IMG/VR virus record: IMGVR_UViG_3300028831_000812
Coordinates: 1-34,384 of that record
Reading direction: 5' to 3' (one strand)
DNA: 34,384 nt
Origin: a virus
The notes below the pieces were generated by a model. It did no database searches and was not told where the DNA came from. It saw only the letters and a list, made by a program, of their open reading frames with translations. The translations under genes were made by a program, and so were the position numbers. Of the stretch, positions 3,160-26,148 are shown one piece after another. Each line of letters begins with the position of its first letter. Positions within the stretch are counted from its first letter, which is position 1.

Positions 3160-4545
3160 CTACGGCTCCCAACAGGTTGATCCGGCGCACGTCTTGAGCG
3201 ACGCGAGCATTGAAGCCAGCGCGGCTATACGGGCCTGGTTCGCCGGCTTGTTGATTTTGTTCGCGAGTTGATCGGGGTCAGCGACGAGGTCATTGTATTC
3301 TCTGCCGCCGCTGTTCCATTCCGCGTAGCAATCAGTCAGGCCGAAGCCCGACGTGCTTTTCGTTATCACACCCACGGCATCACCTGATGCGACAAGCATG
3401 GCGCTTCGCCAATCGGCATGGACCGGATCAGCGAACAGCGGCCGCATGGACTTGCCGTCCAGCGCATAGCCAGGGGGCACGGTGATCCCGGCCATATCGC
3501 AAATCGTCGCCGCGAGGTCGAGATTGCTCACCATCTTGTTGCAGGTCACGCCCTCTGGGATGCCTGGGCCGCGGATGTAGAGCGGCACACGAAGCACCTT
3601 GAGATAGGTCGAATCCTTGCCCATCAAGCGAAGCTGGCCGTGCGCCAGTCCATTGTCGGACGTGACGATGATGTAGGTGTTGTTCAGCCGGTTCTTGTCG
3701 CGCAGCTTTTCGACAACGGCGTGCACCATGTCATCGGCCGATCTCACGCACTCGCATTGCTTACGCCAGAAAGAAACCTGCCCGTCGATGTCGTTCTGCG
3801 TCAGAAGCGGCAGCGCCAGCATTTCGGACGGCTTAAGCTGGTCCATCGGGTTCAGGTTGAAGCTGGGGTCACTGAAAAATGGGAACGGCTCGCTCGCGTA
3901 GGCGCCGGCGTAAGTCACAGACGGCACAGCTGGCGTGTGTGGCGTCACCGGCGAAAGGTTCAGGTAGAACCGCTGGCCCGGCACCATGCCGTCGAGAAAT
4001 TCGAGTGCCTGGCGCGTCATCGTGTCGATGATGTATTCGCCGGTGTAGGTATGCGATGCGCCCGTCGCCCCGCCGTCGTTGGATTCGTAGAACGTGCAGC
4101 CGACGTAATTGGCGTTCGGCACGTCATCTATGTCGCAGCGCCAGAAATCGTGACCTGGGAAAACATGCGTAGGAGCGATCTTCTCGTCGCCGTTAATTTT
4201 CTTGCCGGAATGCCCCACGCGCCGGCCACTGTTCTTAGCCCACACCGGCAGCACGTTGCCTTCGATCAGGCTGAACGCCTGGTAGCCGCCATCAGGTCCG
4301 TTGTTATCGATGACGCCGGTGTTGTGGTACGATCTGCCGGCATCAATCGACGCCCGCGATACCGCGCAGAGCGACTTTTCCACGAAGGTATTTGGAAACC
4401 GCATTCCGCGGTCGATGACATTCGCCTTAATCCACGGCATAAATGAATTGCCGTGACTGTCCAAGAGCACATTGCCCTGGCTGTCCAGCATGTTGCCGGT
4501 CATATCGTCGAGAAGGATCAGGACAACATCGTATTGATCGCTCAT
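3160..4545 (-). CDS. Sulfatase-family (alkaline phosphatase superfamily) protein
   Basis: 461 residues, the usual size for a type I sulfatase. Metal-binding and active-site features in order: Asp13-Asp14 in LILLDDM; the formylglycine motif region CAVSRASIDAGR at Cys60; a GHSGKKIN motif (His112, Lys115); TPHTP (His203); SDNG (Asp297, Asn298); Lys310; and RVPLYIRGPGI near 319-329. Known sulfatases hydrolyse sulfate esters after the Cys is oxidised to formylglycine. Here the core is C-x-V-S-R rather than the usual C-x-P-S-R or C-x-A-S-R. The GxHR His near residue 304 also appears to be Leu (GQLRL). No signal peptide is visible. The gene has a good ribosome site (GGGGAG) and lies between the tail-fibre partner and the endolysin, so a virion-bound enzyme acting on surface sulfated sugars is an attractive inference. 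A phosphodiesterase activity is an alternative. Confidence 0.85.
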   Translation of the reverse strand: MSDQYDVVLILLDDMTGNMLDSQGNVLLDSHGNSFMPWIKANVIDRGMRFPNTFVEKSLCAVSRASIDAGRSYHNTGVIDNNGPDGGYQAFSLIEGNVLPVWAKNSGRRVGHSGKKINGDEKIAPTHVFPGHDFWRCDIDDVPNANYVGCTFYESNDGGATGASHTYTGEYIIDTMTRQALEFLDGMVPGQRFYLNLSPVTPHTPAVPSVTYAGAYASEPFPFFSDPSFNLNPMDQLKPSEMLALPLLTQNDIDGQVSFWRKQCECVRSADDMVHAVVEKLRDKNRLNNTYIIVTSDNGLAHGQLRLMGKDSTYLKVLRVPLYIRGPGIPEGVTCNKMVSNLDLAATICDMAGITVPPGYALDGKSMRPLFADPVHADWRSAMLVASGDAVGVITKSTSGFGLTDCYAEWNSGGREYNDLVADPDQLANKINKPANQARIAALASMLASLKTCAGSTCWEP

Positions 4546-5138: not shown

Positions 5139-8100
5139 TTATGGGATTTCCCAAACGTCGAATGTCGAACCGCGCTTGATGGTCGATTTGGTGCCGAACG
5201 ATGCGTTCTGTGCAAAAGCAACCGATATGGTACCGGCGACTCCGACCAAAAGCTCTCCCCAGATTATCGCCACTCCGGGACCAGCGGTCGTCGAACCGAA
5301 CGCAGTATCCAAAGCTGTTTTCCTAGAACCCGTGAATGTTCCTGAGTCCAAGAATACCTGTACATTATAGATGATGTTTGTAGCGGTCAGTGCCGATGGT
5401 GTCGGTTGACCGGCACTAATATCGAACTTGTACCCGCCCGATGCGTTTGCATCGAAATGGAGCACTGCCCTAAACCCATAGCGAACGCCAGCAAGGATAG
5501 CCTGTGTTAGACCCGTGACATCCGCCATTGTCGTCGAACTTGTCACGTCGAAATCTGCGTTTACTCGGTTGGGGAATATCCCAAGTATCGTGCGCGCCTG
5601 AGTTGGATTGAGTGCCGTCGGGGTGGCCGGATCAGCCGCGTCGGCAGCGCCGCCAATAAATCGCGACGCCGCGATAGTCGCCATCTTGGCGAGCGTGACT
5701 TTGTTCGCCCCGATAGTGGCTGCGAATGATCCCGTTCCTGATCCGGTTACATCACCCGTCAGCGTGATTGTCTGATCGCCAGTGTTGTTGCCAGAACTTG
5801 TTCCGCCGAGGGTCGCATTGGCGGTGAGCGTCAGGTTTTTTCCGGCTAGCGTGAACGTCGATCCGCCGCCGGTGAGGTCGAGTGTCAGCGCTCTATTGGC
5901 ATCGAGAACGGGGATGATGTTCAGATAATTGGCGCCACTCGCCAGAATTTTTAAGGTGCCGTTGAAAAAGATATTTCCGAGAAATGTCTGGTCCCCAACA
6001 TCAGAAATCGCCGCAAGGGTTGTATTGGCATTTTGTTTAATCGGAACGTTGATGTCTTTGTTTGCCGTTAATGCTGTTCCGTCTGTCCCGATCTTCAGAA
6101 GCCAAAAGAACGAGCTATTTGGATCATCGAAGCGGAACGTCCCGTCCGAAGGAACGATAGCTTTACCGGTGAAGGTTTGGTCTGCGCTGAATGTCTGAGC
6201 GCTACCAAGACATGCAATTGTATCACTCGTATTAGGCAGCGTGTAGGTTTTGAGTGAGGTCGCTGGCCCAGAAAACTGCATGAAGGCGTTATTCGTACCG
6301 CCGTTCGCACCGGCAAGGATGCTTGTCCCCACCGCTGCCGATGCGCTGAGGTCGATTGAGCCGAAGCCGAGCGAACCGCCAGACCGCCGTAAAATTTGCC
6401 CGTCGGTCGCTGTCGAAATCGCTGCCGGTGCGCCGGTCCCAGATGCTTTTCCGAGGACGGCCGGACCCGTCATGTCCGCGAGTTTGCCCAGCACCACTGT
6501 TCCAGCGGTGATGGCCGCACCGTCAAAGGACGTTGCGCCGTCCGTAAGCGCAAGGATCAGGTTTCCGTGCGTGTCCCAAACTTTGATCCCATAATCGCCG
6601 GAAGCGAACTTTCCAACTCGAACGCGAAGCGTCGTCCCATCTGCCTGAAAAACGTCGAGGCGTTTATTGGAGCTGTCGATAACTATTTCACCGCCACTCG
6701 ATGAAATCTTGGTCGTGTCGATGCCAAAGCCGCCAATGGCACCTGAGGTCGCGGTGATCGCACCACTAATCGTAGCTCCGGTCGCGAACAGCAATCCCGA
6801 TTCGTAAAGACGGAAAGTCGCTATCCCCCGATTTGCGAATGACGCACCAGCCCAAAACCGAACATCGTCGGCACCAGTGACGGTCGAGGCGAGGCCGAAG
6901 GAATTGGCGGCATCGCGGATATAATCGGCGCCGATCTTGAACCCGCTGATGAGCGTGCCCGAACTGTCCGAACGGAAAACAAGCGTGCCGTCGCTGTCCC
7001 AGATCTTGAAACCATAATCGCCGCTACCGAATTTTCCGAACTGCGCGCGATCAAACGTGCCGTCATTTGCCGTGATGCGTGCATTTGGCCCGTCGATGAA
7101 AAGGCGGCCTGCTTCACCAAGATGGAGCGTTTTGGTCCAGGTGTCGCCGTCTAGGAGCTTTCCCCCCGCAAGGGTGTTGTCGGTAACATCGGCGTTGACG
7201 ACTTGAGCCGTGCTGCCCAGCGAGGAAGAACTAAAAGCGCTCGCATTGCCCGAATTGTCGATGGAGCGAAGCCAATAGTAATTCGAGGCCCCAGACGCTA
7301 AACCGCCACGTGGGTGGCTTTGCCTCTTGCCGATGCGCGCAGGAACCGTGGCAATAAGATAGTTGGTAGCATCCGCAACCGGATCAGGCGCTACATTGGT
7401 CGGCGTTTCCCAAATTTCGATCAGCGTTAGGTCTGCATCGCTTGAATTCAGCCAGCGCAGCGAAACATGATGGAGCTTGCCAGTAATGGAAACCCAAGTC
7501 GGAGCCGATGGAGCCGTTGCATCATAAGTAGATGTGTATGGCCCGGCTACGGAACTGAATGCCGATTTGTTCCCAAGCCGGTCGATTGCTCGCACCTTGG
7601 CGGAATAGGCTGTGTTCGATTTCGTCGGGAATGTAAAGGATGTGCTGTCACTATCGACACGACCGCGGTGCTCAAAGCTACCGCTTCCCTCCTGGACCAT
7701 AATTCCGTAGGAACCGAGATCAGCCTCGGAGTTCGCATTCCAGGTGAATGTGACAAAAACGACTGGAAGACCCGTTTTTGGATCAGCACCTCCCGCTGAG
7801 GTAAAGGGTGAGCCGCCGAAGGTTGGAGTTGCCGGCGCTGTGGCATCCAGATCGTCGACAGTGACGAGAGCAGGTCCATACGGACCCGCCGCCGCTGTGA
7901 ACGCGCTGACATTTCCGGATTTGTCGATGGCGCGAAGCCGATAGTATTTCGACGAACCAGTCGCCATCGCACCGCGCGTATATGCGCCTTTGGCAACCTT
8001 GTGACCTTGAAGAACGTTGATGCGGTAAGCAATGTCAGCGACCGGATCGGGCGATGCGTTTGTTGGCGTCTCCCAAATCTCGATCTTGTCGAGATCATCA

Positions 8101-21460: not shown

Positions 21461-22174
21461 ATGCCATCCGTTGCTCAGAAGCGTTGCGAGGGCTGCGGAA
21501 AGCGGTTCGCCAAACCTTTGAATTGCAGTGTTCGGCGGTGGTCTGAACGCCGGTTTTGCTCCCAGCCATGCAAGGTAGAAGCGCAGGTGGGTGCACCATC
21601 GAAAAAGCGTGGAAACCGCTATCGCGATAGTGCCGAGAGGCTGCCGTGCAGGATTTGCGGACAACCAACCCGTTACCTCGGCACCCGAAGAAACCATCTC
21701 TTCGGATTGGTGCATTGTGGATCGGCCAACTGTAGACAGGCGTCACTCGCTCTCAAGAACGAGCGAATTGCCAAGCGACATCTCGCCGATTACGCCAGTG
21801 GAAAGCGAAAGAAGATACGCACGGCATGGCTAAGCGTCGCCCGGATCAGTGTTGAAGAGAGGGCAATTTCATCGTGGTTTGAGCTGCGGGGCTGGACACC
21901 GCAATTCCGCCTCCTGCTAGGCGTCAGCGATGTGCGGCAGCCAAGATCGCTCGATCTCGATTTCGCGCAACCGGCCCTTCGCCTTTGCGTTGAAATCGAC
22001 GGAACTAGTCACCGCAAGCGCAAAGACATTGACGCGCGCCGCGATGAACTCCTGGCAAAGCGCGGCTGGAAAACTCTGAGGATTCCAGCCTCGCTAGTAC
22101 GAAGTGACATCCACGCAGCAACCGGAAAGATCGCTGCGTGGATCAATCACGAAACAATCGACGTGAAAAAATAG
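21461..22174 (+). CDS. Vsr/DUF559-like nuclease with zinc fingers, probable free-standing homing endonuclease
   Basis: 237 residues on the plus strand within the minus-strand head operon. Two cysteine clusters come first: Cys9, Cys12, Cys33, Cys37, and Cys63, Cys66, Cys86, Cys91, both zinc-finger-like. The C-terminal ~100 residues match the Vsr/DUF559 type of PD-(D/E)XK fold: LDLDFAQPALRLCVEIDG (Asp165/Asp167, Glu178-Asp180), His184, the Arg/Asp helix DARRDELLAKRGW and the strand KTLRIP. Vsr-like nucleases of this layout occur as phage homing endonucleases. Its own promoter-like sequence lies at 21407-21435. The 3' end overlaps the capsid gene end by 28 bp. DNA cleavage is inferred from the fold; the target site is unknown. 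Confidence 0.85.
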   Translation: MPSVAQKRCEGCGKRFAKPLNCSVRRWSERRFCSQPCKVEAQVGAPSKKRGNRYRDSAERLPCRICGQPTRYLGTRRNHLFGLVHCGSANCRQASLALKNERIAKRHLADYASGKRKKIRTAWLSVARISVEERAISSWFELRGWTPQFRLLLGVSDVRQPRSLDLDFAQPALRLCVEIDGTSHRKRKDIDARRDELLAKRGWKTLRIPASLVRSDIHAATGKIAAWINHETIDVKK

Positions 22175-23145
22175 CCCAAATCCGCGCCGACCAACTTCAT
22201 GTCGAACGCCATTTCGGCTTCGACACGGATGGTCGATCCGGGCTTGCCGCGGTTCGGCACCGGCTCGGTCCAGGACGCGATGCCGAAGGCGTTCTCGCCC
22301 TCGAGTCCGTCCCAGCCGAAGATGTAACCGGCCGACGGGATCATCAGGCCAGGTGCATCCGGCGCATACGACAGCAACGCGACCTTCCCGACCGCGAAGT
22401 TGTACGACGCGGCCGCGCCCTTCTTCGCGCTGTTGTAGGTCGCCTTCGCCACGACCACGCGGTCGACGTCGAAAGCGGCCGCGAGCAGTTCTGGGGTGAT
22501 CTTCTTCGCGTCGGCCTGCAGCGTGTACTTCACGCGGTCGATCACCAGCGGGTGCTTGCGCAGCGCCTGGTACACCGGATAGCCCAGCGTCAGGACGTTC
22601 GGCTCGTGGCCGGTGTTCTGAAGCATGGCCGTCTGGCCATTGGAGATGTCCGTGAACGGATCGGAGTTCGCGTCATCGTTCCACTGGATCGTGTGCGTGG
22701 CATCGCTCGTCGCTGCGGTGCCGGTGATATCCGTCGCCCACTTGCCCGTTGCCAGGTAGTTGGTGGCGAACAGCCGGTCGCGCCGGATGAGCAGCTTCTG
22801 CATCAGGAATTCGGTCATCGACGCTTCGAGGTCGATTTCCTTGTCGGCGTTCGCACGCGTCTGGTCGCCGAGATCCTTGTGCAGCGCCCAAACGTCGGCG
22901 AGGTAGCTGTCGGTCGCCAGATCGACGCCCGAGCCGGCCGACTCTTCTCCGTCACCGCGCTTCTGCGCTTCATCACGGAAGAAATCGTCCTTGTTCCACT
23001 TGTAATAGATGTCCGATTTGTTCGCGACGGGAACGATCGGAAACACCTTGTCGGCGATGAAGTTGTTGTGGTCCTGCATGTACGCAACCGCCACGTTGGT
23101 GAGCGGCTTGTTCGTGTGGACCTGACGAACTGTGGGTGAAGGCAT
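22147..23145 (-). CDS. Major capsid protein
   Basis: 332 residues starting MPSPTVRQVHTNKPLTNVAV. The family phrase 'AYMQDHNNFIADKVFPIVPV' appears near residues 21-40, followed by a charged arm (WNKDDFFRDEAQKRGDGEES) and the mixed alpha/beta body. Residues 160-190 contain a short loop typical of HK97-fold shell proteins. It lies after the protease, scaffold and decoration genes. A ribosome site (GATGGAGAA) and a repeated leader precede it. The last codons overlap the convergent nuclease gene by 28 bp, so the C terminus (GYFFTSIVS) is shared with antisense coding sequence. Confidence 0.85.
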   Translation of the reverse strand: MPSPTVRQVHTNKPLTNVAVAYMQDHNNFIADKVFPIVPVANKSDIYYKWNKDDFFRDEAQKRGDGEESAGSGVDLATDSYLADVWALHKDLGDQTRANADKEIDLEASMTEFLMQKLLIRRDRLFATNYLATGKWATDITGTAATSDATHTIQWNDDANSDPFTDISNGQTAMLQNTGHEPNVLTLGYPVYQALRKHPLVIDRVKYTLQADAKKITPELLAAAFDVDRVVVAKATYNSAKKGAAASYNFAVGKVALLSYAPDAPGLMIPSAGYIFGWDGLEGENAFGIASWTEPVPNRGKPGSTIRVEAEMAFDMKLVGADLGYFFTSIVS

Positions 23146-23160
23146 AGCGGTTCTCCATCA

Positions 23161-23190
23161 AAGGGATTGCAGCGCCTCACGGCGGTGCGT
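23161..23190 (-). repeat. Leader RNA hairpin copy B (upstream of capsid gene)
   Basis: On the mRNA strand this gives a 3-bp outer stem (GCA/UGC), a C-C mismatch, a 4-bp inner stem (CGCC/GGCG) and a GUGA tetraloop (GNRA class). It lies about 25-45 nt before the capsid start codon. It is related to copies C (23264-23293) and A (23711-23740). Confidence 0.65.
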
Positions 23191-23215
23191 TCATGAGAGG
23201 GGCTGACAGGAGTGA

Positions 23216-23238
23216 CGGCGGGCGGTCTTTACCCGCCG
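23216..23238 (-). other. GC-rich hairpin between decoration and capsid genes
   Basis: CGGCGGG (23216-23222) pairs with CCCGCCG (23232-23238) across a 9-nt loop. No T tract follows on the minus strand, so it is not a classical terminator. It may stabilise or process the mRNA between the two abundant gene products. Confidence 0.5.
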
Positions 23239-23263
23239 CCGCGCCCATGCCCGGCTTGCCCCT

Positions 23264-23293
23264 TTGGGATTGCGGCGTCTCACGACGGCGCGA
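23264..23293 (-). repeat. Leader RNA hairpin copy C (intergenic)
   Basis: Shares GGGATTGC and the hairpin design of copy B but with sequence changes that keep pairing: outer stem GCG/CGC and inner stem CGUC/GACG on the mRNA, again with a C-C mismatch and GUGA loop. It lies in the 174-bp gap between the decoration and capsid genes. Confidence 0.6.
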
Positions 23294-23319
23294 GCGCGCT
23301 TGCCGACGCGCGTTTCTGA

Positions 23320-23700
23320 TTAGCCCCCGGTCGGAATGACCCGAACCAGGGCCTGTTCATCGGCATTCGCAGTCTCGATCGCGACGGCGACCACGACGTT
23401 CGTGCTCGTCTTCACGACGAGCTTTCCGGTTGCGGCTTCCGTCATGAGCTGCTGGCCGGCGGTGCAACCGCCGACGCCGATGATTGCGGGCGTGAAGCCT
23501 TCGTATTTCACGATGGCCGCCTCGCCCGCCTTGGGATCGTTCTGCAAGATGCCGGTGATCGCTTCGCCGCCGGTCGACGCCAGGTTCACGGCGCGATCGG
23601 TCGACGTCTGCTTCACGGCGAGGTACTGCCCGGTCGTGCTGAGGTCGGCGCCGGCGATAAGGTTGCCGCCTTCCGACAGACCGGTTCCATGCGTTGTCAT
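23320..23700 (-). CDS. Capsid decoration / stabilisation protein (DUF2190-like)
   Basis: 126 residues starting MTTHGTGLSEGGNLIAGAD. A beta-rich, Gly/Ala/Val-rich protein with LSTTGQYLAVKQTSTDRAVNL and a C-terminal VVVAVAIETANADEQALVRV. This is the pattern of small phage head decoration proteins that bind the outside of the capsid. It precedes the major capsid gene, as decoration genes commonly do. It shares a nearly identical leader with the capsid gene (SD in GATGGAGAA), in keeping with equally high expression. Confidence 0.75.
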   Translation of the reverse strand: MTTHGTGLSEGGNLIAGADLSTTGQYLAVKQTSTDRAVNLASTGGEAITGILQNDPKAGEAAIVKYEGFTPAIIGVGGCTAGQQLMTEAATGKLVVKTSTNVVVAVAIETANADEQALVRVIPTGG

Positions 23701-23710
23701 AGGGATTCTC

Positions 23711-23740
23711 CATCAAAGGGTGGTGCCGCCTCACGGCGGG
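23711..23740 (-). repeat. Leader RNA hairpin copy A (upstream of decoration gene)
   Basis: On the mRNA strand CCGCC and GGCGG form a 5-bp stem closed by a GUGA tetraloop (23726-23739). The hairpin is followed by CCCTTTGATGGAGAA and the decoration start codon. The whole ~42-nt leader matches that of the capsid gene with a one-base length difference. Confidence 0.65.
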
Positions 23741-23764
23741 TGGTGGGTGGTCGGCGTAGCGCTG

Positions 23765-24535: not shown

Positions 24536-25222
24536 GGGTACTCCTTCGAGCGTTGTGATGCCGGCAGCACCGGCAAGGGTCGCCGCAATTCCCGCGGTCA
24601 GGGATTTCGAGACATCACCAGCGACAAGGCCGTTGATGAAGGACGAAAACTCGTCAAGACTTTGCCCGATCATCGCCGCCTTATCGATGACGGCGTCGTC
24701 CTTGATAATGGATTCGATGGATTGTCGAAGCGCTTCTTGGCCCTTCCAGAATTTGTCCCAGAGGTTCTGAAGCTGGAGTTGCTCGTCGAACTTCTCCGCG
24801 AAGGTCTCGGCGCAGATCGCACCGTTGGTCGCAATTCCGTATTTCGCGAACATCTCGTCGAGCGCTTTGCCGACCTCGCTCCCTTTCCAGTCGCCCGGAA
24901 TTTTATCGGACAGATCAAGGGCCTTCGCGCGTGTCTTGATATGCGTGCGGATGGCGGCGTGTGAATTGTTCTTGCCGCGGCCAACGGCGTGAATGGCGTT
25001 TTCAAGGTCGGCCGCATCCTTGATCGGATACGATCCGTCCTTCATGGCTTCCTTGCCAGCCATGTCGCGGCGATCCTGCGCGCTGTACTTCGCCTTCCAG
25101 AACGCCTCATCGGCGTCATCGCGCTTCATGATAGTCACTGTTGCGTGTTCCTGACACGGACGGTCGACGGCGGCTATCTTGCCGATCGTCAGGGCGGAGA
25201 GGATACGTTTGAAACCGCTCAT
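23765..25222 (-). CDS. Capsid assembly protein with scaffold region
   Basis: 485 residues. The N-terminal part contains a conserved head-gene segment at about residues 65-110 (YPIKDAADLENAIHAVGRG and HAAIRTHIKTRAKAL) seen in many phage head-assembly proteins. Residues ~230-485 are highly charged, helical and low in hydrophobic residues (DDDFKKMQAELAIEKM, AKAAEEKAVLDFAKRADD), as in scaffolding proteins. The start overlaps the protease stop by 4 nt (ATGA at 25219-25222). A strong internal ribosome site precedes Met230, so the scaffold half is probably also made separately. Confidence 0.75.
   Translation of the reverse strand: MSGFKRILSALTIGKIAAVDRPCQEHATVTIMKRDDADEAFWKAKYSAQDRRDMAGKEAMKDGSYPIKDAADLENAIHAVGRGKNNSHAAIRTHIKTRAKALDLSDKIPGDWKGSEVGKALDEMFAKYGIATNGAICAETFAEKFDEQLQLQNLWDKFWKGQEALRQSIESIIKDDAVIDKAAMIGQSLDEFSSFINGLVAGDVSKSLTAGIAATLAGAAGITTLEGVPMSDTLKKALGLPATATEAEVSAAVTKRDDDFKKMQAELAIEKMSDKHKAFANNKGAKLPEGGRDRFAAMTPAERDKHIEDNPVTGDGGDDENTEKALKAGDAFKSISGQIITKRAAGVMYDVVKAQDEEIRKSRDAIAKAAEEKAVLDFAKRADDLGFGKDFGPTLRKAYGGDVTAQLEVEKRIAALNKQVETGQLFSNFGKSSPQEGSAESELIAKAAEIKKAEPKLSDQQAYTRAYKDPANMAIVKRMRAEASA
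24540..24546 (-). promoter_or_regulatory. Internal Shine-Dalgarno site for the nested scaffold
   Basis: AAGGAGT on the mRNA strand ends 4 nt before the ATG at 24535, inside the long capsid-assembly gene. It is one of the strongest ribosome sites in the window, which argues for regular use. Confidence 0.7.
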
Positions 25223-26148
25223 GCTTCGATCTCCTTGCAGCCTTCGAGGCGCTTGCCCTGAATGGAAAAGCCGGTGTATTCGCCACTACGGAATTTCGCG
25301 AGCACGGCGGGCGGCGGCTTGTAAGCGATCATCAGTCCGGTCTTGTTGGTCTGAATGTCCATCGCTTTCGCGATCTCCGTCGTCAGGGGGAATGCAAAGA
25401 TGTACGTCCCCACATCGGGGTCATTGTGCATCTCGTTCCCGGCGCGGCTGTTCTCCATGAAGTCGGCCGCAGCCTTCAGCATCGCGTCTTCCGGAATGTG
25501 CTCTGGCACGCGTTCACCGGCGTGCTCGCCTTGATAGTCAACGTTCAAATCGAAATAATCTTCGCCGTTCACTTTGCAGACCACGGCCCAACCGAAGACC
25601 AAGCCGAGCGATTCATCGACCTTAGCGATGCTGTAGCGTTTTAGGGCGGTCGAGACTGGTTCCAGATCGTTAAACCGAACCTCGGCGGTGGTTTGGCCGT
25701 CGAGCCACTGTGCCGCTAAGCGATGATGCCCGTCGGCGATATAATTTTTGTTATTATGACGCACTACGACGGGGAATTTATTACCCTTGATCCCGTTGGT
25801 GCGCATCGCCTCGACCTTTTTCGGATCGACGCGGTCTTGCATGGCATGAAGCTCGTCAAGCTTTACTGTGGTCTTCGGCAGCGTTTCCGAATTCGTCAGC
25901 GAGCCGAAGAAACGAGGTACCTGATCCGGCCGCAGCGAACCCAGCGCGTTTACGTCGTACAGAAACGGTGTCTTCGCGGTGTCGGCGTCGTGCGGTTTTA
26001 GTTCGCGCTTGGCCACGACGGCGGTTTCACCGATACATGCCTTGAACGACTTTGCCCTACCACGCTTCGCGTTGCCCAGCGCCGTCGGAACATGAACCGA
26101 CGAGGTGGTCATGTCTTTCATGACAGTAGCAAAGTTTACGGCGGTCAT
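25219..26148 (-). CDS. XkdF/S78_2-type prohead protease fused to a ParB-like domain
   Basis: 309 residues with two parts. Residues ~90-165 form a ParB/sulfiredoxin-like domain: a start motif (ELHAMQDRVDPKKVEAM), then FPVVVRHNNKNYIADGHHRLAA with the hallmark DGHHR at about 138-142. Residues ~175-300 match phage XkdF-type proteases: ESLGLVFGWAVVC, a conserved YQGEHAGERVPEHI segment, ENSRAGNEMHNDPDVG with a likely catalytic His near 240, and EYTGFSIQGK with a likely Ser near 294. The protease should process scaffold or head proteins during maturation. The stop overlaps the scaffold gene start. The ribosome site is weak, so the exact start is uncertain. Confidence 0.8.
   Translation of the reverse strand: MTAVNFATVMKDMTTSSVHVPTALGNAKRGRAKSFKACIGETAVVAKRELKPHDADTAKTPFLYDVNALGSLRPDQVPRFFGSLTNSETLPKTTVKLDELHAMQDRVDPKKVEAMRTNGIKGNKFPVVVRHNNKNYIADGHHRLAAQWLDGQTTAEVRFNDLEPVSTALKRYSIAKVDESLGLVFGWAVVCKVNGEDYFDLNVDYQGEHAGERVPEHIPEDAMLKAAADFMENSRAGNEMHNDPDVGTYIFAFPLTTEIAKAMDIQTNKTGLMIAYKPPPAVLAKFRSGEYTGFSIQGKRLEGCKEIEA

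Follow-up and report, generated by a model that had tools for sequence, protein, structure and literature searches.

A hairpin leader at the ribosome sites of capsid and other virion protein genes in tailed phages

Head genes and leader copies in the window

The window, that is, the whole stretch of DNA that was analysed, is a 34,384-base contig from IMG/VR and contains a tailed-phage late module on the minus strand, with genes for a portal protein, a head morphogenesis protein, a ParB-like/protease-like protein, a decoration-type head protein and a gpE-type major capsid protein. The major capsid gene (22147..23145, minus strand) was assigned by its match to phrog_1005 (major head protein, E 2e-87), and the decoration-type head gene (23320..23700, minus strand) by a weak match to phrog_673. 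Small head genes related to the latter are found in L008 and L250, preceded by the same leader as the window gene. Beside the head genes, the ORF at 25219-26148 (minus strand) joins a ParB/VapB-like N-terminal part to an XkdF-like protease C-terminal part; relatives carry the label DNA methyltransferase, apparently a misannotation that has been propagated. A 461-aa ORF at 3160-4545 (minus strand) has a sulfatase-like reading (LCAVSRAS...), unusual amid phage tail and lysis genes.

A preliminary description, made from sequence alone, had placed three hairpins with GUGA loops on the mRNA strand: upstream of the decoration gene (copy A), upstream of the capsid gene (copy B) and in the decoration-capsid gap (copy C). 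All three were confirmed at these places on the minus strand. In copy B (23169..23188, minus strand) the hairpin, here termed P2, consists of a GCA/UGC outer stem, a C.C mismatch and a CGCC/GGCG inner stem closed by GUGA. It is followed by CCC (23163..23165, minus strand), corresponding to the CCY that follows U in most of 132 copies, and by the conserved Shine-Dalgarno block GAUGGAG (23153..23159, minus strand). P2 of copy C (23272..23291, minus strand) has a GCG/CGC outer stem, the C.C mismatch, a CGUC/GACG inner stem and the GUGA loop. The 3-bp outer stem, mismatch and 4-bp inner stem claimed for B and C therefore held, as did the compensatory changes from B to C (inner C-G to U-A, outer A-U to G-C). 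Upstream of P2, copy C contains a hairpin absent from the preliminary description (23295..23312, minus strand), which resembles the P1 hairpin described below; it has a CGCGC/GCGCG stem, a G.A mismatch, a U-A pair and a CGGC loop, without a bulge. Copy A (23726..23739, minus strand) is a mismatch-free hairpin of 5 bp (CCGCC/GGCGG, GUGA loop) 5' of the decoration gene, and its block CCC UUU GAUGGAG (23708..23720, minus strand) repeats that of copy B. Near-identity of leaders A and B over ~42 nt held roughly: the two share the core of the hairpin and, at 91%, a block of 23 nt. Assignment of the loop to the GNRA class had to be corrected: it is GNGA or GNGAN, and there is no well-paired copy with GNAA.

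R1, a covariance model covering P2 and the ribosome site, was built from a seed of A, B and 47 copies from elsewhere. R1 scored 49.7 bits over 23143-23189 (copy B) and 31.3 bits over 23698-23743 (copy A), both part of the seed, and 34.0 bits (E 1.2e-7) over 23250-23292 for copy C, which was absent from it. With model R2, whose seed includes C, this copy reached 52.3 bits over 23246-23312. The best R1 match in the window beyond A, B and C scored only 7.4 bits. Single-sequence folding energies were unremarkable, with z values of -1.46 (B), -1.28 (A) and +0.6 (C), and the three window copies alone are therefore no proof; proof is supplied by the comparative evidence.

A 23-codon ORF, MGAAAGKDRPPSLLSAPLMNAPP (23177-23248, minus strand), starts at 23248 after copy C (AAAGGGG) and ends with a UGA located in the loop (GUGA) of hairpin B. 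This ORF may encode a leader peptide or be due to chance.

Leader architecture and conserved pairing

The element is ordered as follows: an optional P1, 1-6 nt, P2, about 2 nt, (U/G)CCC, 5-8 nt, an A(U/A)GGA Shine-Dalgarno sequence and the start codon. P2 has 3 outer bp (mostly GGC/GCC; also GCC/GGC and GCG/CGC), usually a C.C mismatch (115 of 132 filtered copies), a CGNN/NNCG inner stem of four or five pairs (CGUC/GACG, CGCC/GGCG, CGCU/AGCG, CGCA/UGCG, CGAC/GUCG) and a GNGA or GNGAN loop (GUGA, GUGAN, GCGA(N) or GAGA(N), rarely UGAN or GGAN). CCY and GGA were 5-8 nt apart in 131 of the 132 copies, and GGA lay 6-12 nt from the start codon. This set was filtered by regular expression, and the ranges are those that the filter admitted.

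P1 consists of a 4-bp stem, a bulged C, UU/AA and an NGRC loop. It was present upstream of P2 in 51 of 142 copies (about a third), compared with 1.7% in shuffles, and lay 1-8 nt from P2 in 46 of these 51. Tandem copies in one gap, such as C and B in the window, recur in L018, L021 and Pseudomonas phage PAJU2. In L164, L172, L177, L195, L201 and L253, P1 is replaced upstream of P2 by another hairpin, which has a GCGGGAC(C)A loop on a stem that varies and which precedes genes for sheath and tube proteins in Mu-like phages.

In the P2 alignment (49 sequences) 90% of cells pair, and both sides were changed in 63 cells versus 21 in shuffled alignments; all slid versions were far worse. In the P1+P2 alignment (38 sequences) 97% of cells pair, with both sides changed in 9 of 13 pairs. 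Because pairing had been part of the filter by which most of the aligned sequences were chosen, tests without selection for pairing were added. Loci selected by capsid protein and anchored on the loop and the 3' (Shine-Dalgarno) side showed perfect pairing over four positions in 9 of 20 cases, versus 19% with shuffled partners; with the same anchoring, loci selected by Shine-Dalgarno block did so in 11 of 18 cases versus 10%. The 4-mer further upstream gave 0 pairings in both sets. Among leaders picked by Shine-Dalgarno pattern, 9 of 22 had a stem of at least 7 pairs; such stems occurred in 4% of shuffles and at 1 of 23 sites outside leaders. Finally, unpaired columns were simulated along the alignment's own tree as a tree-aware null. 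Total covariation was 3.09 for P2 (null mean 0.60, maximum 1.65) and 4.71 for P1+P2 (null 0.77, maximum 2.28). Compensatory change is strong in both P1 and P2 and exceeds the tree-aware null.

The hairpins had been proposed to be a selected RNA element, to be checked by covariance-model search and by a test for covariation. Both checks support this: the model detected the element in many phages, and covariation stood above the shuffled and the tree-aware expectation. Pairing was kept, moreover, in the sets picked by capsid protein or Shine-Dalgarno block alone.

Distribution and downstream genes

The window hairpins are members of an RNA family found in well over 100 IMG/VR contigs and also in a few named prophages and phages. 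A scan for the pattern GGCCCGUCGUGA(N)GACGCGCC returned at least 120 viral contigs; across 257 Gb of cellular genomes, 62 stretches fitted a looser version. Of 119 viral P2-core matches, 103 had an ORF of 60 aa or more behind them, no more than 40 nt away; the CC-to-GGA ribosome-site block stood behind 21 of 63 cellular matches. Named host genomes or isolates with a pattern match belong to Rhizobium, Sinorhizobium, Mesorhizobium, Chelativorans, Paracoccus and Pleomorphomonas, and from these few names we infer that the carriers are mostly phages of soil Alphaproteobacteria.

On whole contigs, R1 gave about 60 matches at E<1e-4 in 32 of 43 contigs, confined to a single strand per contig. Most of the 43 had been picked for holding one copy, and only the additional copies are independent. 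An alphaproteobacterial sample of 289 genomes contained 3 matches at E<1e-4, all before phage genes: a tail-fibre-like gene of a prophage in Sinorhizobium medicae (the genome at the centre of the sample), a major-tail-type gene and an HK97-type capsid gene. These genes were identified by reading translations, not by profile search. Of 15 named phages searched with R1, PAJU2 was the sole supported case. Here P2, UCC and a GGAG block end at the major tail gene, and a second P2-like hairpin lies at the start of the same gap; the score is low, and it is position and pairing that carry the case. When consensus leaders were compared with named phages by BLAST, only chance matches turned up, one of them within the tail-sheath gene of Burkholderia phage BgManors32.

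The genes downstream of the leader encode mainly abundant virion proteins of unrelated families. Proteins behind 73 leaders were compared with families. Six or more major-capsid families were represented (Phage_capsid, 15; Phage_capsid_3; Major_capside; P22 coat; cap_E; SU10), together with tail-tube families (Phage_tube_2, 7; TTP_11, 3; Phage_tail_2; Phage_tail_3; TTP_12; Tail_tube), sheath (3), cement, gpD decoration and scaffold proteins. In contig G018 the element precedes four genes (head structural, major head/capsid, sheath and a further virion structural gene).

For the window capsid, 80 relatives were gathered by protein. A minority of them, from 73-74% identity downwards, had an R1 match close to the capsid or decoration gene, and several distant relatives have the same leader layout, which is missing in the closest: the element was absent from all five nearest relatives searched with R1 (L003-L006 and L020, capsid ~80% identical). 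Relatives with this gene pair and no paired structure had been named as a finding that would refute selection, and this condition is partly fulfilled. Because these five lack it, the element is dispensable for the window capsid/decoration pair, and its absence there implies gain and loss. Its behaviour is that of a module which virion genes acquire or lose, not that of an ancestral part of the pair.

Possible functions and comparison with known RNA elements

Structure, position, orientation and gene association of the leader are conserved. Its function is inferred, without expression, probing or binding data. By a modest margin we favour a conserved cis-acting translation-initiation leader that would be read by a conserved, so far unidentified factor, with an effect of undetermined sign. 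In this model the leader, placed directly 5' of the Shine-Dalgarno sequence of the most abundant virion protein genes, would act on translation initiation, as inferred from its fixed distance to the ribosome site. P2, with its GNGA loop and C.C mismatch, would be recognised by a conserved RNA-binding factor, along with P1 (bulged C, NGRC loop) where present; the presence of P1 in only about a third of copies counts against the model. Specific recognition is inferred because the GNGA loop, mismatch, bulge and CCC are fixed and a plain stabiliser needs none of them. Since the element is common to unrelated phages, a host factor or the ribosome is a likelier reader than a phage-specific protein. 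The CCC, 5-8 nt before GGA, may pair weakly with the Shine-Dalgarno sequence. This CC-GG pairing is predicted by folding and its letters are invariant, without support from covariation; GCCC variants break the third pair of the stem. Pairing of CCC with the P1 loop was dropped as a candidate, as CCC is kept where P1 is absent. The bound structure and CCC may gate or pre-position the 30S subunit, and the most likely outcome would be that capsid, tube, sheath and decoration proteins are made in large amounts and in a coordinated way. It remains possible that a hairpin flanking the Shine-Dalgarno sequence could equally repress.

A bolder reading, against which we lean slightly, is a post-transcriptional regulon in which an RNA code of P1, P2, CCC and Shine-Dalgarno sequence is common to unrelated tailed phages and read by a conserved cellular RNA-binding factor. 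If true, the code would single out those genes, whichever they are, whose products are the abundant virion proteins, and the same host input would tune particle output across many phage lineages.

A translational operator, a stabiliser and a binding site for a phage protein had been suggested as functions, and the evidence does not separate the three. The main rival to the initiation leader is a possible mRNA stabiliser or processing element, in which cleavage of the late polycistronic mRNA leaves P2 (with or without P1) as a hairpin at the 5' end, where it blocks 5'-dependent decay of heavily used cistrons and raises yield via mRNA level. Use of hairpins as mRNA stabilisers is known from phages (T4 is reviewed in PMC3014915). 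Location between cistrons directly before the ribosome site, the frequent tandem arrangement of two hairpins and the abundance of the served gene products, the highest of all, speak for it. However, any strong hairpin should then do, yet the loop (GNGA only), mismatch and CCC are fixed, and P2 with only ~7 bp is too short for a typical RNase III site.

Less likely is a translational repressor operator modelled on the coat-protein operators of RNA phages, at which a virion protein or phage regulator bound to P2 or P1 would stop initiation when subunits are in excess. The P1 layout of stem, bulged nucleotide, 2 bp and tetraloop is formally MS2-operator-like, and the position at the Shine-Dalgarno sequence fits. 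Against this, the served proteins come from many unrelated families, which rules out any single virion protein as the ligand, and in contig G018 the same element stands before capsid, sheath and other virion genes alike.

An element acting at DNA level or in transcription (late promoter, operator or terminator), whose palindrome is merely hairpin-like, is very unlikely. Inverted repeats are common at operators and the spacing to the gene is constant, but the element always points the same way as the gene, the loop tolerates an extra nucleotide, the asymmetric bulge is kept, no U-tract stands behind the hairpin, no promoter-like site was seen near the window copies, and the constant distance is that to the ribosome site. 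Chance, or recent duplication and drift of one leader within the window phage, which had been raised as a caveat and could account for the 91% block of A and B and for copy C lying in the same gap as B, is all but excluded and is refuted as sole explanation by comparative evidence (more than 100 copies elsewhere, covariation and gene association).

Rfam 15 at the gathering cut-off gave no family in the window or in seven element-bearing loci (tRNA only), and at relaxed E-value nothing relevant for the window copies, L126 and L308. P1 shares with the MS2/R17 coat-protein operator the lower stem, one 5' bulged nucleotide, 2 bp and a tetraloop near the start region. Membership of this class fails: the P1 bulge is C and not A, the loop is NGRC and not ANYA, a second hairpin (P2) is present, and the served genes encode unrelated virion proteins of dsDNA phages without such a coat protein. 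Lambdoid boxB is likewise a short phage-mRNA hairpin with a GNRA-like tetra- or pentaloop, but the present element has a C.C mismatch and lies at the Shine-Dalgarno sequence of each virion gene instead of the operon start; the likeness concerns the loop only (boxA and N protein were outside the comparison). T4-type intercistronic hairpins and translational operators also lie at ribosome sites of phage genes; they are gene-specific, whereas one family is reused here on unrelated genes and phages. The guanidine-II (mini-ykkC) riboswitch has two small hairpins followed by a Shine-Dalgarno sequence as well, but with ACGR loops and before metabolic genes, and the element has no Rfam match. An intrinsic terminator was rejected, as P2 is followed by UCCC and the Shine-Dalgarno sequence and no minus-strand terminator-like site occurs at the copies. 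ANTAR-bound tandem hairpins (hexaloops with A1 and G4) do not fit the NGRC and GNGA(N) loops. CsrA/Rsm targets show GGA in the loop of a hairpin bound by CsrA; in the present element GGA lies 3' of P1 and P2, at best in the weak CC-GG stem. The A(N)GGA block is not used as evidence for CsrA, since the copy filter itself had selected that block.

No description of the element was found in the literature searched, outside which some phage RNA surveys may fall. Structured phage leaders are of a known kind; as far as checked, the reuse of a single family before unrelated virion genes in different phages appears to be new. One long late mRNA has to yield hundreds of copies of a few proteins while the products of adjacent genes stay low, which is largely unexplained outside a few model phages. 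One RNA family repeatedly acquired at abundant-virion genes makes this question testable and points to a conserved recogniser. The model can also serve annotation, flagging major capsid and tail-tube genes without protein similarity.

Two further repeated stretches were noted in cellular genomes. In a Bacteroidales MAG (L324), GGCCCGUCGUGAUGACGCGCC occurs twice (6370-6400 and 6980-7000), 604 nt apart, each time within a longer repeated leader before small ORFs and with no clear Shine-Dalgarno sequence; these leaders may be convergent. Three Lysobacter genomes (L301, L322 and L338) have GCCCGUCGUGAGACGCGCC in common; it is part of a longer stretch that is also conserved, GTGTGCAG...ACA-ATTCCCCTGCAAAGACCTGTGACTCC, and that may be an unrelated structured RNA.
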